Source of the DNA: Spirochaetota bacterium | Lineage (GTDB): Bacteria; Spirochaetota; Spirochaetia; Treponematales; UBA12059 | Direction: 5' to 3' | NCBI GenBank assembly: GCA_022703505.1 | Contig: JAKLDN010000003.1 | Coordinates: forward strand, 248,001-312,000 | DNA length: 64,000 nt | Shown: one piece after another, positions 34,824 to 42,839 of the stretch | How the letters are laid out: every line of letters begins with the position of its first letter | Numbering within the stretch: position 1 is the first letter of the stretch | Notes under the pieces: generated by a model | Seen by the model: only the letters and a program-made list of their open reading frames with translations | Told to the model about the DNA's origin: nothing | Database searches by the model: none | Made by a program: the position numbers and the translations under genes

Positions 34824-35723
34824 ATGGAATTCTACGGCGCCGTCGAGGCCGGGGGAACCAAGATCGTAGCCGCGATCGGGAAGGCAGGGGAGGAACCCCG
34901 GGCCCTGGAGCGCATTCCGACCACGGATCCCGGGGAGACCCTGGACCGGATCATCGGATTTTTCCAGGCCCGGGTTTCCGAAGGACTCCCGGTCCGCGCC
35001 CTCGGCGTGGGCTGCTTCGGTCCCGTGGATCTCGACCCGGCCTCCCCCCAGTGGGGCTTCATCACCTCGACCCCCAAGCTCCGGTGGCAGGGGACGGACG
35101 TGGCGGGCACCCTGGGGCGAGCCCTGGGGGTTCCCGTGGGGTTCGACACGGACGTGAACGCCGCGGCCCTGGCGGAGTACCGGCTCGGCGCGGCCCGGGG
35201 CCTGGATCCCGCGGTCTACCTGACCGTGGGCACCGGGATCGGGGGAGGGGCGGTCGTGAACGGCCGGCTCCTCCACGGGGCCGCGCACCCGGAGATGGGG
35301 CACATGCTCGTGTCCCGCCGCGGGGACGACGCGTTCCCGGGCTCCTGCCCCTTCCACGGTTCCTGCTGGGAAGGGTTGGCTTCCGGGCCGGCCGTGGAGG
35401 CCCGATGGGGGCGGCGGGGACAGGACCTCCCTCTCGATCACCCCGCCTGGGACCTGGAGGCCTGGTACCTGGCCCAGGGAATCGTATCCCTGCAGATGGT
35501 ACTATCCCCCCGGGCCGTGATCCTGGGCGGAGGGGTGTCCGAGGTTCCCGGGCTGATCGACCGGGTGCGGTCCGCGGCCGCCTCCTTGTGCGCGGGCTAC
35601 CTGGACAGGCCCCGGACTCCGACGGAATGGGCGGACGTGATCCGGGCCCCGGGCCTCAAGATCCCCGGGCTGGACGGCGCCTTCCTGCTGGCCGAGGACG
35701 CCGCGGGCTCGAGGATTGCGTAG
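34824..35723 (+). CDS. ROK-family fructokinase
   Basis: 299 residues. ATP-binding EAGGTK at the N-terminus, the GxGxG hinge VGTGIGGGAV, and the zinc/ROK motif in HPEMGHMLV followed by GSCPFHGSCWEGLASGPA, which is typical of bacterial fructokinases (ScrK/GmuE branch). It phosphorylates fructose at C6. GGAAGGAG lies upstream. It is 30 nt after the MotA-like gene and may be in the same transcript, although the functions do not match. Confidence 0.92.
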   Translation: MEFYGAVEAGGTKIVAAIGKAGEEPRALERIPTTDPGETLDRIIGFFQARVSEGLPVRALGVGCFGPVDLDPASPQWGFITSTPKLRWQGTDVAGTLGRALGVPVGFDTDVNAAALAEYRLGAARGLDPAVYLTVGTGIGGGAVVNGRLLHGAAHPEMGHMLVSRRGDDAFPGSCPFHGSCWEGLASGPAVEARWGRRGQDLPLDHPAWDLEAWYLAQGIVSLQMVLSPRAVILGGGVSEVPGLIDRVRSAAASLCAGYLDRPRTPTEWADVIRAPGLKIPGLDGAFLLAEDAAGSRIA

Positions 35724-35770: not shown

Positions 35771-36982
35771 CTACTTCAACGCCGACAGCGCTGTCCGGAG
35801 TCGGTCCACGCCCTTTCGACATTCCTCGGTGGAGCAGGAGTAGGCGAGGCGCAGATGTCCTTCCCCGGAGGGACCGAAGACGCTTCCGGCCACGCAGGCG
35901 ATGTGGTGCTCGTTCAAGAGGTAGTCCGCGACCTGGGCGGAGGATTTTCCGAAGGACCGGATGTCCGGGAAGACGTAAAACGCGCCCTTCGGCTCCGCGA
36001 CCTTCACTCCCGGGATCTTGGCCAGGCCGTCCAACATCACGGTTCGCCGTTTGGAGAATTCTCCGACCATCTGATCCACGCAGGACTGGTCCGCGGACAG
36101 GGCCTCCGCCGCGCCGTACTGGATGAAGGTGTTCACGCAGACCGTAGTGTACTGCCGGACCTTGAGGATGGCCCGGGTCATCTCCTCGGAGGCGACGGTC
36201 CATCCCAGGCGCCAACCGTCCATGGCGTAGGTCTTGGAAAAGCCGTTGATGATGACCGTACGCTCCGGCATGCCCGGCACGGAATAGAAGCTGGGCGCGT
36301 AATTCCTTTCCCCGTAGTAGATGCGGGAGTAGATCTCGTCCGCCAGGACCACCAGGTCGTGCCTGCGGGCGATGTCGGCCAGGGCCTTGAGGTTTTCGGC
36401 GCTCTCCACGCAGCCCGTGGGGTTGGCCGGAGAGGTCAGGCAGAGCATCTTGGTCCTCGGGGTGATCCTCTTCTCGACCTCGTCGGGGGACATGGAGAAC
36501 CCGTCCTCCAGGCGCACGGGCACCTCCACGGGGATCCCGCCGGCCATGGAGGCGCAGGACTTGTAGTGGTGCCAGTTGGGATCCGGGACCAGGACCTCGT
36601 CGCCGGGATTGATGAAGGCCAGCATGGAAACCAGGATGGCCTCGTTGGCGCCCGCCATGACGCAGGTCTGTTTTTCCCCGTCCACGGGCACCCCGGTGTC
36701 GATCGTGGTCCGCGCCCCGATGGCCTTCCGCAGGGCGGGGATGCCCAGGTTCGGGGCGTAGTGGACCTCGCCCCGTTTCAGCGCCGCCGCTGCCGCGGCC
36801 TTGATATGCTCGGGGGTGTCGAAATCCGGCCGCCCTATCTGCCAGTGGATGACGTCCTTGCCGGCCGCCTCCAGTTCCTTCACCTTGTCGAAGACCTTGC
36901 GTATCCCCGAAAACGGAACCAGCGAGAGCCTGTCCGCCATCGCCCGCTCCGCGAAGCTCTTTCCCGTATCCTTGGTATCCAT
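35771..36982 (-). CDS. PLP-dependent aminotransferase, class I/II
   Basis: 403 residues of the AAT-I fold. The PLP lysine is Lys250 in NGFSKTYAMDGWRLGW. Other marks are IHWQIGRPDFDTPEHI near the N-terminus, TSPANPTGC, VLADEIYSRIYYG and the C-terminal LRLAYSCS. Close to aspartate/aromatic aminotransferases, specificity unresolved. AGGAGG precedes ATG 36982, 10 nt after the TPP enzyme gene on the same strand, so the two act in one pathway, likely making or consuming a 2-oxo acid. Confidence 0.92.
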   Translation of the reverse strand: MDTKDTGKSFAERAMADRLSLVPFSGIRKVFDKVKELEAAGKDVIHWQIGRPDFDTPEHIKAAAAAALKRGEVHYAPNLGIPALRKAIGARTTIDTGVPVDGEKQTCVMAGANEAILVSMLAFINPGDEVLVPDPNWHHYKSCASMAGGIPVEVPVRLEDGFSMSPDEVEKRITPRTKMLCLTSPANPTGCVESAENLKALADIARRHDLVVLADEIYSRIYYGERNYAPSFYSVPGMPERTVIINGFSKTYAMDGWRLGWTVASEEMTRAILKVRQYTTVCVNTFIQYGAAEALSADQSCVDQMVGEFSKRRTVMLDGLAKIPGVKVAEPKGAFYVFPDIRSFGKSSAQVADYLLNEHHIACVAGSVFGPSGEGHLRLAYSCSTEECRKGVDRLRTALSALK

Positions 36983-36992
36983 GTGGTTCCTC

Positions 36993-38609
36993 CTACTTGT
37001 GCTTGCGCAGGATCAGGTCGTCATACTCCGAGGCGTCGATGGAGGCCTCCACGATGACGGGACCGTCCGACTTGAACGCCTTAGATAGGGCGTCCCGGTA
37101 ATCCGAGGCGTTCCCGGCGCGGATCACGGGGACTCCGAACACGGAATCCGCGTGCGGGTAGTCCCGGTCCAAGAGGTCCGTACCGTACCGGGGCATCTTC
37201 TTCTTGTCCTGCTTCAGGCGGATCAGGTCCAGGCTGCGGTCGTCCAGCAGGACGAACACGATCGGTAGTCCGATCCTGCGGGCCGTGGCCATCTCTCCGG
37301 CCATCATGTGGAAACCGCCGTCTCCGGTCACGCAGGCCACCTTCCGGTCCGGGCGGCAGAGCTTGGCGGCCAGGGCGGCGGGGATGCCGAAGCCCATGGA
37401 CGACCATCCGTTGGTCATCAGCTGAAGCCCCGGGGCGGGGGTCCTCCACATCTGGCCGACGAGGTGGATGTGGGCTCCGACGTCGCAGGTCATGATTCCG
37501 TCTTCGGGCAGGGCTTCCCGCAGGCCGGCCAGGGCCGCCCGGGGGCCGAAGGATCCCGGAGGCGGCTCCATGGCCCGGAACATGGCGTCGCGCCGCCCGG
37601 CCAACTCCTTGAGGTCCCAACGGGAATCCAGGGGAGCCAGGGCTTCCAGCCTGAGAAGGGATGTGCCGATATCTCCCGTCACGTCCGTGACCTCGGGATA
37701 GAGGATTCGGTCGATGTCCGCGGGAAGGGTGTCCAGGCAGAGCAGGGGAACGGAGGGCATCCAGTCCTCGTAGTTGAACTCGATGGGATCGTACCCGACC
37801 GCCACCACCAGGTCCGCCTCCTTGTGGGTTGCCGCCACACGGTCGGACAGGGCATGGAAAAGAACCCCGACGTAGAGGGGATGGTTTTCCGATACCAGGC
37901 CCTTGGCCATGGGGGTCAGGATGATGGGCATCCGGTGCTTTTCGGCGATCCGGATCAGCCGGGGACCCAGGCCCGCACGGACCGCGGACAATCCGACGGC
38001 CAGGACGGGCCTGCGGGAAGCGGACATGGCGGTTTCGATCGAGCGGAGGGCATCCTCCGAGGCCGGGCCCAGGGTACGCACCGGGGGCAGACCCGCGGCG
38101 ACGGGAGAGTTCGTGGTCTCCTTGGGACCCAGATCCTCGGGCAGGCCGATGTGTACGGGCCCGGGCATGTCGGAGAGGGCTATCTGCAGGGCCTGGTCGA
38201 GGACCTGGTCGACCCTGTCCGGAGCGAGGCGGGTGGTCCACTTGGTCAGGGGCCGGTACAGGGCCTGGTGGTCGACGGCCATCTGGACCGTGCGGCCCAG
38301 CATCTTCTCAGGCGGCTCGCTGGTGAACGCCAGGAGAGGGGAGCGGTCCAGGAGTGCTCCCCCGACCCCTGTGCTGAGGTTCGTGGCACCGGGTCCCACG
38401 GTACCGTAGCAGGCTCCCGGGATACCCGTCAGGCGGGCGGAGACATCGGCCATGAACCCGGCGGTAGCCTCGTTCGCGACCAGCACGAAATCCACGCCGC
38501 CGGCTCGCATGGCATCCATATAATAGAGCCACGAGCCGCTGGGTACGCCGAATACTCGTCGGATACCTGCGCTGCGCAGGCGGGCTACCAATCTCTCGGC
38601 GACAGTCAT
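36993..38609 (-). CDS. TPP-dependent 2-oxo acid decarboxylase/synthase (acetolactate synthase superfamily)
   Basis: 538 residues with the three-domain POX/ALS layout: Pyr domain with catalytic Glu47 (VANEATAGFMAD), central domain, and PP domain with GDGGFHMMAGE followed by LLDDRSLDLI. The usual Asn-Asn after the GDG motif is Asp-Asp here, as in some decarboxylases and catabolic acetolactate synthases. No FAD-type signature can be called by eye. The substrate could be a 2-oxo acid formed by the adjacent aminotransferase. ATG 38609 has GGAG upstream. Confidence 0.87.
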   Translation of the reverse strand: MTVAERLVARLRSAGIRRVFGVPSGSWLYYMDAMRAGGVDFVLVANEATAGFMADVSARLTGIPGACYGTVGPGATNLSTGVGGALLDRSPLLAFTSEPPEKMLGRTVQMAVDHQALYRPLTKWTTRLAPDRVDQVLDQALQIALSDMPGPVHIGLPEDLGPKETTNSPVAAGLPPVRTLGPASEDALRSIETAMSASRRPVLAVGLSAVRAGLGPRLIRIAEKHRMPIILTPMAKGLVSENHPLYVGVLFHALSDRVAATHKEADLVVAVGYDPIEFNYEDWMPSVPLLCLDTLPADIDRILYPEVTDVTGDIGTSLLRLEALAPLDSRWDLKELAGRRDAMFRAMEPPPGSFGPRAALAGLREALPEDGIMTCDVGAHIHLVGQMWRTPAPGLQLMTNGWSSMGFGIPAALAAKLCRPDRKVACVTGDGGFHMMAGEMATARRIGLPIVFVLLDDRSLDLIRLKQDKKKMPRYGTDLLDRDYPHADSVFGVPVIRAGNASDYRDALSKAFKSDGPVIVEASIDASEYDDLILRKHK

Positions 38610-38645
38610 CGATGCACTCCTTGAAAAAGGGGAATATCCACGATC

Positions 38646-38686
38646 ATATATCATATATTTATAACATTCTTGTACAGTATTGGCAA
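38646..38686 (-). promoter_or_regulatory. promoter and operator of the TPP enzyme operon
   Basis: On the minus strand TTGCCA (38686-38681), 17 nt, TATAAA (38663-38658), directly followed by TATATGATATAT (38657-38646), which covers the start point. The same 12-mer is at the promoter of the divergent GntR gene. Confidence 0.7.
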
Positions 38687-38748
38687 GGTGAAAGTTGAAA
38701 TTGGGTAGAATCCGCCCTATCCAGTGTGGTCCGTTCAGAGTATTTTCA

Positions 38749-38777
38749 TGGACAGTATGAAGTATATGATATATAAT
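38749..38777 (+). promoter_or_regulatory. promoter and operator of the GntR gene
   Basis: TGGACA (38749-38754), 17 nt, TATAAT (38772-38777). TATATGATATAT at 38763-38774 overlaps the spacer and -10 box, ideal for autorepression. Confidence 0.72.
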
Positions 38778-38792
38778 GCTCGCGGTGACATC

Positions 38793-39461
38793 ATGAACAA
38801 GAAAATTACCGCCATGCCGATCCGCGAACAGCTCTACGAAGCCGTCAAGGAGTCCATCCTTCGGAACGCCTTCATCCCCGGTTCCCTTCTGCAAATCGAC
38901 CGCCTCGCGGAGGAGTACGGGGTCAGCGCCACCCCCGTCCGGGAGGCCCTGGTACGCCTGGAATCGGACGGTTTGGTAACCCTCATCCCGAACAAGGGCG
39001 CCCAGGTCACGGAGATCACGGAAAAGGATATTCGGGAAATATGGGAGATGCGCCGGCTTCTGGAACCCTATGCGGCCCGATCCAGCGCCCCGGCCATTTC
39101 GGAGGAGGATATCTCCGGACTCGAGCGCCTGATCCTGAATCTCCGGGAAGACCCGTCCAATACGGAACTCTATATCAAGACGGATATTATGCTACACGAG
39201 ATGTTGTACTTCCATTGCCCGAATTCCTATCTTCGGGAAACCCTGAGAAAGGTGCACGAGGTCTCATACCGGATCCGATACTTCGCGGAGAGCAGAAAGA
39301 CCATGCATGACACGGTCATTCACGAGGTGATTCGTGAACATTTGGACATTCTGGATATCCTGCGTTCCCGAGACCCCGACCGGATCGTTGTTGCCGTCAG
39401 CTCCCACCTGTTGAACGGCGAGAGAAGAGCCCTTTCTGCCCTTCCCAAGAGCAAGTCCTAG
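38793..39461 (+). CDS. GntR-family regulator, FadR/FCD subfamily
   Basis: 222 residues: winged helix-turn-helix (about 8-75, REQLYEAVKESILRNAFIPGS, YGVSATPVREALVRLESDGLV) and an all-helical FCD ligand domain (EIWEMRRLLEPYAA, with acid/His metal ligands further on, LHEML and HL). It probably represses the divergent TPP/aminotransferase operon and itself through the shared 12-bp sites, and perhaps the TRAP genes downstream. The longer in-frame ATGs upstream overlap the promoter, so ATG 38793 is used. Confidence 0.9.
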   Translation: MNKKITAMPIREQLYEAVKESILRNAFIPGSLLQIDRLAEEYGVSATPVREALVRLESDGLVTLIPNKGAQVTEITEKDIREIWEMRRLLEPYAARSSAPAISEEDISGLERLILNLREDPSNTELYIKTDIMLHEMLYFHCPNSYLRETLRKVHEVSYRIRYFAESRKTMHDTVIHEVIREHLDILDILRSRDPDRIVVAVSSHLLNGERRALSALPKSKS

Positions 39462-39573
39462 GACAGATCCCTCCATCCAATCCGTTCGGCGAAGAAATTG
39501 TCCGAAAATCCCTTCCATATTTAGCCCTAAGCCGGATTGTCCCTGCTTCTTCGCGTAGCCCTTTATTTTTTAC

Positions 39574-39601
39574 TTGACGGATACTATACTCATGATACAC
39601 T
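39574..39601 (+). promoter_or_regulatory. putative promoter of the TRAP transporter genes
   Basis: TTGACG (39574-39579), 16 nt, TACACT (39596-39601), inside an AT-rich pocket; the spacer holds ACTATACTCATGAT. The leader of about 105 nt contains the GGATATA repeat. Confidence 0.5.
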
Positions 39602-39628
39602 GGATATAGGATATAGGATATAGGATAT
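39602..39628 (+). repeat. 7-bp tandem repeat GGATATA
   Basis: Three full GGATATA units and a fourth partial one, followed at 39640-39653 by ATCCATATCCATAT, a near-complement that could pair with them as a leader hairpin. Confidence 0.85.
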
Positions 39629-39714
39629 CGATCAACTAGTATCCATATCCATATGCAGCCCGAAGTGATTCGGGCCAACGATACCGGGAGCCCGCTCCCG
39701 GCAAGGGGAAAGGC

Positions 39715-41679
39715 GTGGAAAAGAAAGCAGAGACTGCGGCGGCAGCCGAAGCGGCCCCGGATGGAGAGAAGATCCTCCAGCAGATCGACCGGGAATCGGG
39801 ATATCGCAGGAATGTCGACCTGTTCTGGAAATATGTGATCTTCGCGATTTCCGTGGTCTTCATATCCTACCATATGTGGACATCCCGGTTCGGGATGCCC
39901 GAGGTGATCAAGCATCGAGCGATCCACGTCGGATTCATTCTGTTGCTTGTCTTCCTGTATTTCCCTTCTTCGAAGAAATCGCCCCGGAACCGGCCCACGG
40001 TGTTCGATCTCATCCTGGCCGCGCTGTCCATCGGCATGGTCCTGTACACCCTTCTGCAGAGGGATGCCTTCCTCAAGCGTGGCGGCGTGGCGGAGCCCAT
40101 GGATCTCATCGTGGGAGGCGTGGCGATCCTGCTGGTATTGGAGGCCTGCCGAAGGTCCGTGGGGCCCCAGCTCCTCATCCTGTGCATCGTCTTCCTCCTG
40201 TACGCCTGGGGTGGACGGTACATACCGGGGATCCTTTCCCACCGGGGCCACTCCCTCGAGCGGATCATCTACCAGATGTACCTGACCAGCCAGGGAATAT
40301 TCGGCATGCCCATCGGGGTTTCGTCGACCTACCTGATCATATTCGTGGTACTCGGGGCCATGCTGGACAAGAGCGGCCTGTCCAAGCTGTTCAACGACAT
40401 CGCCCTGGCCATCGGGGGACGCCTTACGGGCGGTCCCGCCAAGGTATCCGTGGTGGCCAGCGCCCTGGTCGGCATGATCAGCGGGAGCGCGGCGACCAAC
40501 GTGGCGACCACGGGGGCCTTCACGATCCCCCTCATGAAGAAGGTCGGCTACAAGCCGTACTTCGCGGGGGCCATCGAGGCCGCCGCCTCCACGGGCGGGC
40601 AGTTCATGCCCCCCATCATGGGCTCCGTGGCCTTCATCATGGCCGAGTTCCTGGGGGTGCGCTACCTGACCATCGCCGGAGCCGCGATCATCCCGGCCCT
40701 CCTGTACTTCGCGGGGGTCTTCTTCCAGATCGACCTGCGGGCCCGGTCCATGGGACTCCGGGGACTCTCGAAGGAGGAGATCCCGAACGTCTGGAAGACG
40801 ATTCTGCGCTACGGCCAGATGATCATTCCCATCTTCGTGTTGGTGTACCTGCTGTTCGAAGGGCGAACCCCGCTCTACGCGGCCTTCTATACCGTGGTGA
40901 TCACCGCCCTCCTGTCCTGGATCCGCAAGGAGACCCGGATCGGCGCCAAGGAGTTGCGGGATGTGGCGGTCAACTCCGCCCGGAGCTCCTTGAGCATCGG
41001 CGTGGCCATGGCCAACGCCGGGTTCGTGGTCGCCGTCCTCTCCATGACGGGCATCGGCATCATCCTGGCGGACAATATCGTCCGGCTATCAGCGGGCCAG
41101 CTCCCGATCGCCCTGTTCCTATGCATGGTGGTGTCCATCATACTGGGCATGGGCCTGCCGACCAGCGCCTGCTACGTGATCGCCGGGTCCATCGCGGTGC
41201 CCATTCTAACCAAGATGGGGGTCCCCCCCTTCCAGGCCCACTTCTTCGTGCTCTATTTCGCCTGCCTGTCTACCATCACCCCGCCGGTGGCCCTGGCCGC
41301 CTACGTCGGGGCGGGGATGTCCGGAGCCTCCCCCAACAAGGTGGGGTGGACCGCCTTCCGCCTGGCTCTGGCCGGGTTCATCGTGCCGTTCTTCTTCATC
41401 TACAACCCGGAGATGCTCCTGATCTCCGATTCCAAGCTCGCGATCATCTGGTCGGCGATCAGCGGGCTCGCCGGCACCGCCCTCCTGGCCGTGGCTGTGG
41501 AAGGATACCTCACGAAGCGGATCATCTGGCCCCTCCGTATCGTGTTCGGCGCCGCGGCCCTGATGCTCATCGCCCCGGGCCTCCGGACCGACTTGATCGG
41601 CCTGGGCCTGACCCTGACGGGCTTCGCGGGCGTGAAGTTCCTTCCCGCCGCCAAGGAGCGTAAGGCCGCCGCGGCATGA
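39715..41679 (+). CDS. TRAP transporter fused small/large permease (DctQM type)
   Basis: 654 residues with some 17 hydrophobic segments: a DctQ-like N-terminal part (to about residue 170) fused to a DctM-like channel (GMISGSAATNVATTGAFTIPLM, GLPTSACYVIAGSIAVPIL, TPPVALAAYVGAGMSGA). Such fusions go with TAXI-type binding proteins, as here. It imports an organic acid with Na+ or H+. The start is GTG 39715, supported by AAGGGG 6 nt upstream. Confidence 0.93.
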   Translation: MEKKAETAAAAEAAPDGEKILQQIDRESGYRRNVDLFWKYVIFAISVVFISYHMWTSRFGMPEVIKHRAIHVGFILLLVFLYFPSSKKSPRNRPTVFDLILAALSIGMVLYTLLQRDAFLKRGGVAEPMDLIVGGVAILLVLEACRRSVGPQLLILCIVFLLYAWGGRYIPGILSHRGHSLERIIYQMYLTSQGIFGMPIGVSSTYLIIFVVLGAMLDKSGLSKLFNDIALAIGGRLTGGPAKVSVVASALVGMISGSAATNVATTGAFTIPLMKKVGYKPYFAGAIEAAASTGGQFMPPIMGSVAFIMAEFLGVRYLTIAGAAIIPALLYFAGVFFQIDLRARSMGLRGLSKEEIPNVWKTILRYGQMIIPIFVLVYLLFEGRTPLYAAFYTVVITALLSWIRKETRIGAKELRDVAVNSARSSLSIGVAMANAGFVVAVLSMTGIGIILADNIVRLSAGQLPIALFLCMVVSIILGMGLPTSACYVIAGSIAVPILTKMGVPPFQAHFFVLYFACLSTITPPVALAAYVGAGMSGASPNKVGWTAFRLALAGFIVPFFFIYNPEMLLISDSKLAIIWSAISGLAGTALLAVAVEGYLTKRIIWPLRIVFGAAALMLIAPGLRTDLIGLGLTLTGFAGVKFLPAAKERKAAAA

Positions 41680-41837
41680 CCCCGAAGGAGCGGGGCCCCG
41701 ACCCTGGGGTTCCGCGTCCGTCCCCGGCGCGCCGGCCCGTCCGGCGTACCGGGCTCGAAAAGTGCCAAGGCCATCGTGGATGGCTGGATATAGTTCGAGA
41801 TCCGTCGCACGCGGACGGTAGATTAGGAGGAAGGAAG

Positions 41838-42839
41838 ATGACGAATCTGAAGAAGGGATTCGCGCTGCTCGCGGTGGCGGCCCTGGTCCTGCTCGCGGCC
41901 TGCGCCCCCAAGACGGAAGCCGCCAAGCCGGCCGCTCCCACGGAAGTCCGCCACATCACCATGGGCACGGCGGGCGTGGGCGGTTCGAACTATCCCACGG
42001 GCATCGCCATGTCGGCCCTGTGGAACGCCAACATCCCGGGCGTCAAGGCCGTGGCCATCGCAACCGGCGGGAGCCCCCACAACATCGACCTCTTGCGCAC
42101 CAAGGACGCGGACGTCGCCGTCTGCCGCTCCCTGGAGGCCTACCGGGCCACGAACGGCATCGAACCCTACAAGGAGAAGATGCCCTGGCTCCGGTCCCTG
42201 ACGGGCGGGCTGTTCACGGACGTCTTCCAGGTAGTGGCCGTTAAGGCAAGCGGCATCAAGAGCGTGGCGGACTTCAAGGGCAAGCGGATCGTCGTGGGCC
42301 CCGTCGGTTCCGGCGGCGAAGTGGACGCGCGGGAAACCCTGGCGGCCTACGGCCTGACGTACGAGGACATGAAGGTGAGCTTCGTGGAGTTCGCCCAGGG
42401 CATCGACATGATGAAGGACGGTCTCGCGGACGCCGGCATCATCGGCCTGGCCATGGGAGCCTCGGGCATGCAGGAACTGCTACTGGACGGCAAGGTAGGA
42501 CTCATCCCCATCACGGACGAAGCCCTGGCGAACCTCCGGAAGAAGAACGAGTTCCTCATCCGGCGCAACATCCCCGCGAACACCTACCCCAACCAGCCCG
42601 AGGCGGTCCCGACGGTCGGAACCCCCCCGGACATCATCATCGTCCGGGACGACATGCCCGAGGACCTCGTGTACCAGATGACCAAGACCCTGTACACGAA
42701 CCTGCCCGCCATCCACGCCGTCTCGGCCCTGTTGACCCAGTTCACCAAGGACCTGGTGCTGCCCGAGGATCAGATGCTGATCCCCTATCACCCCGGCGCC
42801 AAGAAGTACTTCGTGGAGATGGGCTGGCTGAAGAAGTAG
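41838..42839 (+). CDS. TAXI-family TRAP transporter substrate-binding lipoprotein
   Basis: 333 residues. Lipoprotein signal: MTNLKKGFALLAVAALVLLA then AC, with cysteine near residue 22. TAXI-type body: ITMGTAGVGGSNYPTGIAMS, IATGGSPHNIDLLRTKDADVAVC, and KRIVVGPVGSGGE. It delivers the ligand to the fused permease encoded just upstream. ATG 41838 has AGGAGGAAGGAAG. A strong terminator follows, closing the unit. Confidence 0.93.
   Translation: MTNLKKGFALLAVAALVLLAACAPKTEAAKPAAPTEVRHITMGTAGVGGSNYPTGIAMSALWNANIPGVKAVAIATGGSPHNIDLLRTKDADVAVCRSLEAYRATNGIEPYKEKMPWLRSLTGGLFTDVFQVVAVKASGIKSVADFKGKRIVVGPVGSGGEVDARETLAAYGLTYEDMKVSFVEFAQGIDMMKDGLADAGIIGLAMGASGMQELLLDGKVGLIPITDEALANLRKKNEFLIRRNIPANTYPNQPEAVPTVGTPPDIIIVRDDMPEDLVYQMTKTLYTNLPAIHAVSALLTQFTKDLVLPEDQMLIPYHPGAKKYFVEMGWLKK

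Follow-up and report, generated by a model that had tools for sequence, protein, structure and literature searches.

A putative operator joining an importer, an aminotransferase, a ThDP enzyme and an unlinked asd gene in Spirochaetota

What is the role of a TPP (ThDP) enzyme that is encoded with an aminotransferase and faces a GntR regulator and a TRAP-TAXI transporter? The question was raised by a gene island within a 64,000-nucleotide stretch of a Spirochaetota genome (hereafter, the window). Spirochaete genomes seem to place the importer, the aminotransferase, this unusual ThDP enzyme and a distant second copy of the aspartate-semialdehyde dehydrogenase gene (asd) under a single DNA-binding switch, and this shared control points to an undescribed acid-breakdown route.

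Island genes and their putative operator

Pfam and NCBIfam profile searches agreed with the gene content and coordinates of the original prediction. On the minus strand, the gene for the ThDP enzyme (538 aa; 36993–38609; Pfam TPP_enzyme_N/M/C) is followed after 10 bp by that for a class I/II PLP aminotransferase (35771–36982; PF00155, 239 bits). The plus strand encodes a GntR/FCD regulator, a putative repressor (38793–39461; PF00392 and PF07729), a fused TRAP transporter permease (39715–41679; TIGR02123, 687 bits, cut-off 321) and a TAXI-type solute-binding protein (41838–42839; TIGR02122, 249 bits, cut-off 84), both profiles placing the transporter in the TAXI-TRAP family. The TAXI frame is open from 41676, and its start is probably 41838, as judged by comparison with an alignment of 11 island TAXI proteins; by eye, its N-terminus with LAAC resembles a lipobox. 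The GntR frame is open from 38724, the start in the list of open reading frames, whereas relatives use the ATG at position 38793, which puts the second copy of the 12-mer described below inside the promoter and outside the gene. A ROK gene (34824–35723) lies behind the aminotransferase gene; among the loci compared, only those of this genus have it there.

The divergent promoters occupy an AT-rich pocket in G+C-rich DNA, as had been described: the G+C content of 38610–38792 is 38.8%, compared with 65.8% for the window, and is equally low in 3 of 3191 sliding 183-bp windows. The exact 12-mer TATATGATATAT, noted earlier at both promoters, is present at 38646–38657 (minus strand) and 38763–38774 (plus strand). 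These are its only two exact matches in the whole 3.66-Mb genome (reversed control pattern, 0), so it is not common elsewhere; allowing up to two mismatches, the window holds 8 matches, where shuffles give an expectation of 0.16. The exact sharing is thus real, but the element had been read incompletely, as the 12-mer is a worn copy or fragment of a 19-bp palindrome, the putative operator ATCCTATATNATATAGGAT, which other spirochaete islands also preserve at the corresponding intergenic position.

Sites were scored with a PWM built from 8 islands of other genera. Putative operator 1 (38643–38661, minus strand; 19.2 bits) contains the first 12-mer and overlaps the -10 region of the ThDP enzyme/aminotransferase promoter, which by eye consists of TTGCCA (38686–38681), N17 and TATAAA (38663–38658). 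Putative operator 2 (38759–38777, plus strand), which contains the second 12-mer, scores weakly (13.7 bits, compared with 14.9 for the best shuffled window) and overlaps the -10 of the GntR promoter found by a promoter scan (TGGACA-17-TATAAT, 38749–38777). The top score in the window, 27.0 bits, belongs to putative operator 3 before the TRAP/TAXI genes (39601–39632, plus strand), which carries the 7-bp repeat GATATAG and lies directly downstream of a promoter-like TTGACG-16-TACACT (39574–39601; promoter scan); operator-like sites are found upstream of TRAP genes in other islands too. The best non-site scores were 7.6 in the window and 6.1 in five other stretches of the same genome. The GntR helix GVSATPVREALVRLE is identical in 9 of 11 aligned rows.

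An unlinked asd gene in the putative regulon

A fourth site, with a PWM score of 28.9, was found 15 bp upstream of asd on another contig, and each of the three species in the genus has it unchanged. With up to one mismatch, TATATNATATANGAT has five matches in this genome, four in the island (three sites) and one before asd, and its reversed control has two. The original reading of the island as one regulated unit holds, but its extent was underestimated, since the site at 39601–39632 and the one before asd had been missed. In five other spirochaete loci (L038, L040, L041, L054 and L076), asd lies directly behind the aminotransferase gene. The gene families, the putative operator, its conservation and the asd link can all be read from the sequence, and a regulon of importer, aminotransferase, ThDP enzyme and unlinked asd under putative operators is well supported. 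It is also testable, as one candidate operator joins an importer, an aminotransferase, a ThDP clade and an additional Asd.

The regulon Asd is of the asd_B type and passes TIGR01296 (435.8 bits, cut-off 324.2); the second Asd of the genome is archaeal-type, and both are above their cut-offs. In G1004 and G1005, asd_B is the sole Asd found, so it may also serve biosynthesis. The asd locus of G1005 has no operator site, which argues against asd being in the regulon everywhere, and the gene behind its aminotransferase is an acyltransferase-like ORF, not asd. Two zero-mismatch operator-like sites (G1005:C48:82333 and G052:C41:37522), which sit between RpiR-like and sugar-ABC-like genes (ORFs named by eye), were set aside as probably unrelated, and the one-mismatch sites at G005:C382 and C395 have no island gene beside them.

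Placement of the ThDP enzyme and its partners

In the phylogeny, the ThDP enzyme belongs to a separate clade (support 100/100) that groups with AlsS and with aldehyde-dehydrogenase-linked 2-oxoglutarate-decarboxylase-like (KGD-like) enzymes, for which ALDH-linked plasmid genes served in the tree as stand-ins for cyanobacterial KGD. It falls outside anabolic acetolactate synthase (ALS), whose group closes without it (98/93), and apart from Xsc (one row). The best NCBIfam match is PRK08322 (352.9 bits, below the 509 cut-off); the score against TIGR00118 (IlvB) is 271.6 bits, below 538, compared with 680 for the genome's own IlvB-type paralog. Xsc, Ppd and ComDE gave no match among the best 25 of 53 NCBIfam families. 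On scores and tree position, we rejected anabolic ALS, Xsc, Gcl, Oxc, PoxB, IolD and AruI as its identity. The nearest structure to its AF2 model (pLDDT 85.1) is catabolic ALS, and no assigned reaction was found for any clade member in the present analysis.

Among known systems, the closest comparison is with cyanobacterial 2-oxoglutarate decarboxylase (KGD; sll1981, A2770 and MaKGD) and succinic semialdehyde dehydrogenase (SSADH), whose genes are adjacent in cyanobacteria. Both have an ALS-like ThDP enzyme, and one clade member, in Leisingera, is encoded ~27 bp behind an SSADH-type dehydrogenase gene; for the KGD-like enzymes, all 4 of the records retrieved show an aldehyde/SSADH gene next door. 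Unlike KGD, the island enzyme scores below the PRK08322 cut-off and lies in a clade of its own, and in other clade loci SSADH is replaced by asd or by homoserine dehydrogenase (HSDH), a second copy of which is the partner gene in L037 and L043. Lys466, kept in 31 of 31 clade members, corresponds to MaKGD K471, whereas the K386 position holds Thr, Ile or Leu, both positions being taken from PMC10418658 and mapped by motif in an alignment made without MaKGD. The docked MaKGD model in that paper has K471 salt-bridging 2-oxoglutarate.

The AruH/AruI arginine transaminase pathway is similar on paper (an aminotransferase, then a ThDP 2-oxo acid decarboxylase), but the AruI rows branch apart (100/100) and PRK07524 (AruI) gave 217 bits against a cut-off of 500. 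The classic taurine set (Tpa/Xsc) also combines an aminotransferase with a ThDP enzyme; it had been judged unfit earlier, and the tree concurs, with the Xsc row on a long branch with PoxB, away from the island clade.

The aminotransferase reached no equivalog cut-off among the 25 of 88 NCBIfam matches listed. Its gene follows the ThDP gene in every compared spirochaete locus with a TRAP/TAXI set; outside Spirochaetota, none of 13 loci compared had this aminotransferase or this transporter near the ThDP gene. The Bacteroidota neighbours (parE, parC, aroK, obgE and mutS-like) were dismissed as uninformative housekeeping genes. The transporter shares its TAXI and fused permease families with the glutamate transporter VcGluPQM, but in place of Tyr45 and Gln93, which are key pocket residues of VcGluP according to PMC11574862, every one of the 11 island TAXI proteins has Asn and Arg. 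Because the pocket is unlike the characterised glutamate pocket, import of a free amino acid is only a putative reading.

A candidate route and its competitors

The explanation we favour, although we put it somewhat short of an even chance, is a GntR-repressed route of acid import, transamination, C5 2-oxo acid decarboxylation and delivery of a C4 semialdehyde to Asd. The GntR/FCD repressor would bind sites of the ATCCTATATNATATAGGAT type that lie on the -10, or immediately after it, in the ThDP enzyme–aminotransferase, gntR and TRAP-TAXI promoters, as well as the site before the unlinked asd, and would be released in the presence of a ligand. TRAP-TAXI would import an acidic compound, the aminotransferase would interconvert amino acid and 2-oxo acid, and the ThDP enzyme would decarboxylate a C5 2-oxo-dicarboxylate (2-oxoglutarate or a 4-substituted relative) to succinate or aspartate semialdehyde, which the dedicated asd_B-type dehydrogenase would oxidise with phosphate or link to aspartate. 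Gene families and gene neighbours suggest the uptake, transamination and decarboxylation; repression, the direction of the steps and the substrate are what we infer. Decarboxylase chemistry is proposed because of the position beside KGD-like enzymes in the tree, the Lys466 match and the HSDH/SSADH-like partner genes elsewhere. The lost K386 equivalent counts against it, as do the asd exceptions in G1004 and G1005, the lack of the aminotransferase and transporter near the ThDP gene in the 13 loci outside Spirochaetota and the ordinary ASADH sequence retained by the regulon Asd, and we know of no use of succinate semialdehyde by Asd. A literature search judged by titles and abstract openings returned no paper fitting the combined route. 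If the chemistry is true, "acetolactate synthase" genes in Spirochaetota, Prolixibacteraceae and others perform another reaction, and Asd, regarded as biosynthetic, has a catabolic use.

It is unlikely, but deserves weighing, that aspartate is transaminated to oxaloacetate and decarboxylated by the ThDP enzyme, with loss of C1, to malonate semialdehyde (C3). The nearest PDB relatives of the aminotransferase are aspartate/aromatic aminotransferases, asd and the homoserine dehydrogenase gene belong to the aspartate family, split genes for aspartase and aspartate dehydrogenase lie in the Leisingera region, and a FAH-family gene lies behind the ThDP gene in Thalassotalea. Yet the nearest kin of the ThDP enzyme appear, by their gene neighbours, to use C5 2-oxoglutarate, Asd and HSDH handle C4 semialdehydes, and the lysine that binds the distal carboxylate in Thermus AspAT is Asn in this aminotransferase (alignment with 1j32).

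We give similarly little credence to a biosynthetic set in which the ThDP enzyme would act as a carboligase, decarboxylating a 2-oxo acid and coupling the product with aspartate semialdehyde derived from Asd or homoserine. Its fold and sequence are nearest to AlsS acetolactate synthase and carboxyethylarginine synthase, asd_B is the sole full match in G025 besides its sole occurrence in the two genomes above, and a homocitrate/isopropylmalate-synthase-like gene lies nearby in L038, L054 and L076. Opposed to this, the presence of an importer and of GntR control hints at catabolism, all 31 clade members have Met110 where 23 of 27 comparison enzymes have Gln, and the SSADH-like dehydrogenase adjoining the ThDP gene in Leisingera would drain the aldehyde acceptor. 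Somewhat less probable again is an undescribed catabolic route in which a diamino or hydroxy-amino dicarboxylate would yield 4-amino-2-oxoglutarate and the ThDP enzyme, then a new one, would decarboxylate this directly to aspartate semialdehyde, which the dedicated second Asd would convert to aspartyl phosphate and thence ATP, with homoserine dehydrogenase or an aldehyde dehydrogenase replacing Asd in other phyla.

Most improbable is a route for sulfonates or phosphonates, in which cysteate or phosphonoalanine would meet a transaminase and then a decarboxylase. A TauE-family gene before the ThDP gene in Thalassotalea and the regulator's top NCBIfam match, phnR_burk (87 bits, cut-off 271.5), could be cited for it, but it is opposed by the profile results for Xsc, Ppd and ComDE and by the place of Xsc in the tree, and it leaves the asd and HSDH links unexplained.

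One further genome (G263) also counts in favour of the preferred route: its oligopeptide ABC operon, which comes with an M18 aminopeptidase and this ThDP enzyme, has regulator kin and operator-like sites on its flanks; M18 aminopeptidases prefer N-terminal Asp/Glu.

The island and its operators

The gene content and coordinates of the island (35771–42839) were as originally predicted. In this genome of 3.66 Mb and 14 contigs, a class I/II aminotransferase gene lies on the minus strand 10 bp behind the gene for a ThDP enzyme of 538 aa, while a GntR/FCD regulator, a fused TRAP permease and a TAXI binding protein are encoded on the plus strand. The 12-mer predicted at both promoters was located there (38646–38657, minus; 38763–38774, plus), and no exact match occurs in the rest of the genome. 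Its nature was revealed by the non-coding DNA between the genes of comparable islands in other spirochaetes. There, palindromes of the ATCCTATATNATATAGGAT type occur together with 7-bp repeats of ATATAGG and border the gap between gntR and the ThDP enzyme gene on both sides, most cleanly in locus L042. A third such stretch of the window precedes the TRAP genes (39601–39632). At the ThDP enzyme promoter (TTGCCA-17-TATAAA, read by eye) the operator lies over and behind the -10 element, and it is placed likewise at the gntR (TGGACA-17-TATAAT) and TRAP (TTGACG-16-TACACT) promoters, both from a promoter scan. This layout at three promoters would suit repression.

With a PWM built from 26 sites in 8 islands of other genera, non-sites of the 64-kb window scored 7.6 at best, and those of the five other stretches of the genome that were scanned reached 6.1. 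Operator 2, before gntR, scored weakly (13.7, under the best of 20 shuffles, 14.9). Zero-mismatch operator-like sites were also seen between RpiR-like and sugar-ABC-like genes in two other genomes (L167, G1005:C48:82333; L168, G052:C41:37522).

An unlinked asd gene

Allowing at most one mismatch, TATATNATATANGAT matched five times in the whole genome, with four matches at the three island sites and one on another contig (C7:233435–233449); the reversed control matched twice. The 19-bp site on C7 ends 15 bp upstream of the GTG of asd (aspartate-semialdehyde dehydrogenase), has a PWM score of 28.9, above every site in the window, and is identical in 3/3 species of the genus. We consider the predicted regulon of island and asd solid at the level of sequence. 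In five compared loci (L038, L040, L041, L054 and L076), asd stands immediately behind the aminotransferase gene. The genome also encodes a second Asd, which is of the archaeal type (409 bits; cut-off 301), so the regulon Asd is an additional enzyme there. The asd_B type is the only Asd found in genomes G1004 and G1005, and no operator site was found at the asd locus of G1005. An acyltransferase-like gene replaces asd behind the aminotransferase gene in three related genomes (L035, 12936–13838; L036; L056).

Phylogeny and distribution of the ThDP enzyme

The ThDP enzyme did not group with anabolic acetolactate synthase (ALS), the outcome that would have spoken against the original prediction. 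In a tree of 47 rows (58 before removal of 11 near-copies), its clade (support 100/100) was separate from the biosynthetic ALS group (98/93), which includes the genome's own IlvB, and was nested in a group supported at 99/98 that also contains AlsS, four ALDH-linked rows resembling 2-oxoglutarate decarboxylase (KGD) and two rhizobial rows. Because several reference rows are long-branched and three joins between long rows carry a flag for possible artefact, it is uncertain which row is the clade's exact neighbour. The 31 members of the clade that were aligned share 103 invariant columns, among them Gln109-Met110, His252 in VLFHALS, His380, His382 and Lys466. The structural model (pLDDT 85.1) is nearest to catabolic ALS structures, thus the fold does not decide the reaction. 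ALS-annotated genes adjoining aldehyde or succinate-semialdehyde dehydrogenase genes in L096, L097, L098 and L099 look as if they encode KGDs.

The clade is rare. It was detected in 5/296 Spirochaetota genomes (E 1e-120) and, at ≥65% identity, in 11/58 relatives, own genome counted. In searches with the ThDP enzyme the genome's closest relatives were entries titled Treponema sp. AS27 and uncultured Spirochaetes, and we therefore regard it as a spirochaete. Counts elsewhere, each with the centre genome itself among the positives, were 1/369 in the Thalassotalea class, 1/294 in the phylum of L043 and 4/5 in the small phylum of L037. ThDP enzyme, aminotransferase, TRAP and TAXI genes share one contig in the window, L034, L035, L036, L038, L039, L040, L041, L042, L054, L056 and L076, with gntR between set members in all except L040 and L041. 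In the 13 loci from outside the spirochaetes that were compared, neither the aminotransferase nor the transporter was found near the ThDP enzyme gene.

Importer pocket, partner genes and proposed reaction

Tyr45 and Gln93, named in PMC11574862 as the residues mattering most in the glutamate-transporter TAXI protein VcGluP, are replaced by Asn and Arg in 11/11 island TAXI proteins. The pocket, predicted to be positively charged, would fit a di- or oxo-acid. For the P. mirabilis TAXI, uptake of 2-oxoglutarate and 2-hydroxyglutarate is reported, as cited in PMC12344293.

The best-fitting reaction order, to which we give somewhat less than an even chance, would lead from a C5 2-oxo acid to a C4 semialdehyde. 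It is favoured purely on gene-neighbour evidence, since most partners encoded near the ThDP enzyme act on C4 semialdehydes or, judging by their families, on acidic amino acids. Oxaloacetate as the substrate remains an alternative, as do carboligation and a sulfonate or phosphonate route.

In L037 and L043 a homoserine dehydrogenase gene directly follows the ThDP enzyme gene and is a second copy in each genome. On a Leisingera plasmid an SSADH-like gene lies ~27 bp upstream; a split aspartase gene and one for aspartate dehydrogenase are located farther along. The aspartate ammonia-lyase of L058 (NZ_CP081041.1, 20556–21679) appears as a pair of neighbouring CDS that look like parts of a broken gene; one of the pair was scanned. 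In Thalassotalea, TauE is upstream and a FAH-family gene downstream. Homocitrate/isopropylmalate-synthase-like genes, of which two of three were scanned and fell below every NCBIfam cut-off shown, were seen near the island in L076 (13361–14566), L054 (11084–12286) and L038 (15052–16242).

Genome G263 encodes a GntR protein 46% identical to the island regulator, with operator-like sites, which faces an oligopeptide ABC operon containing M18 aminopeptidase and ThDP enzyme genes. This operon (L075, 889–17903), which those sites and the GntR gene flank, also includes DUF885 and nitroreductase genes, and its oligopeptide ABC importer differs from the TRAP/TAXI system of the island.
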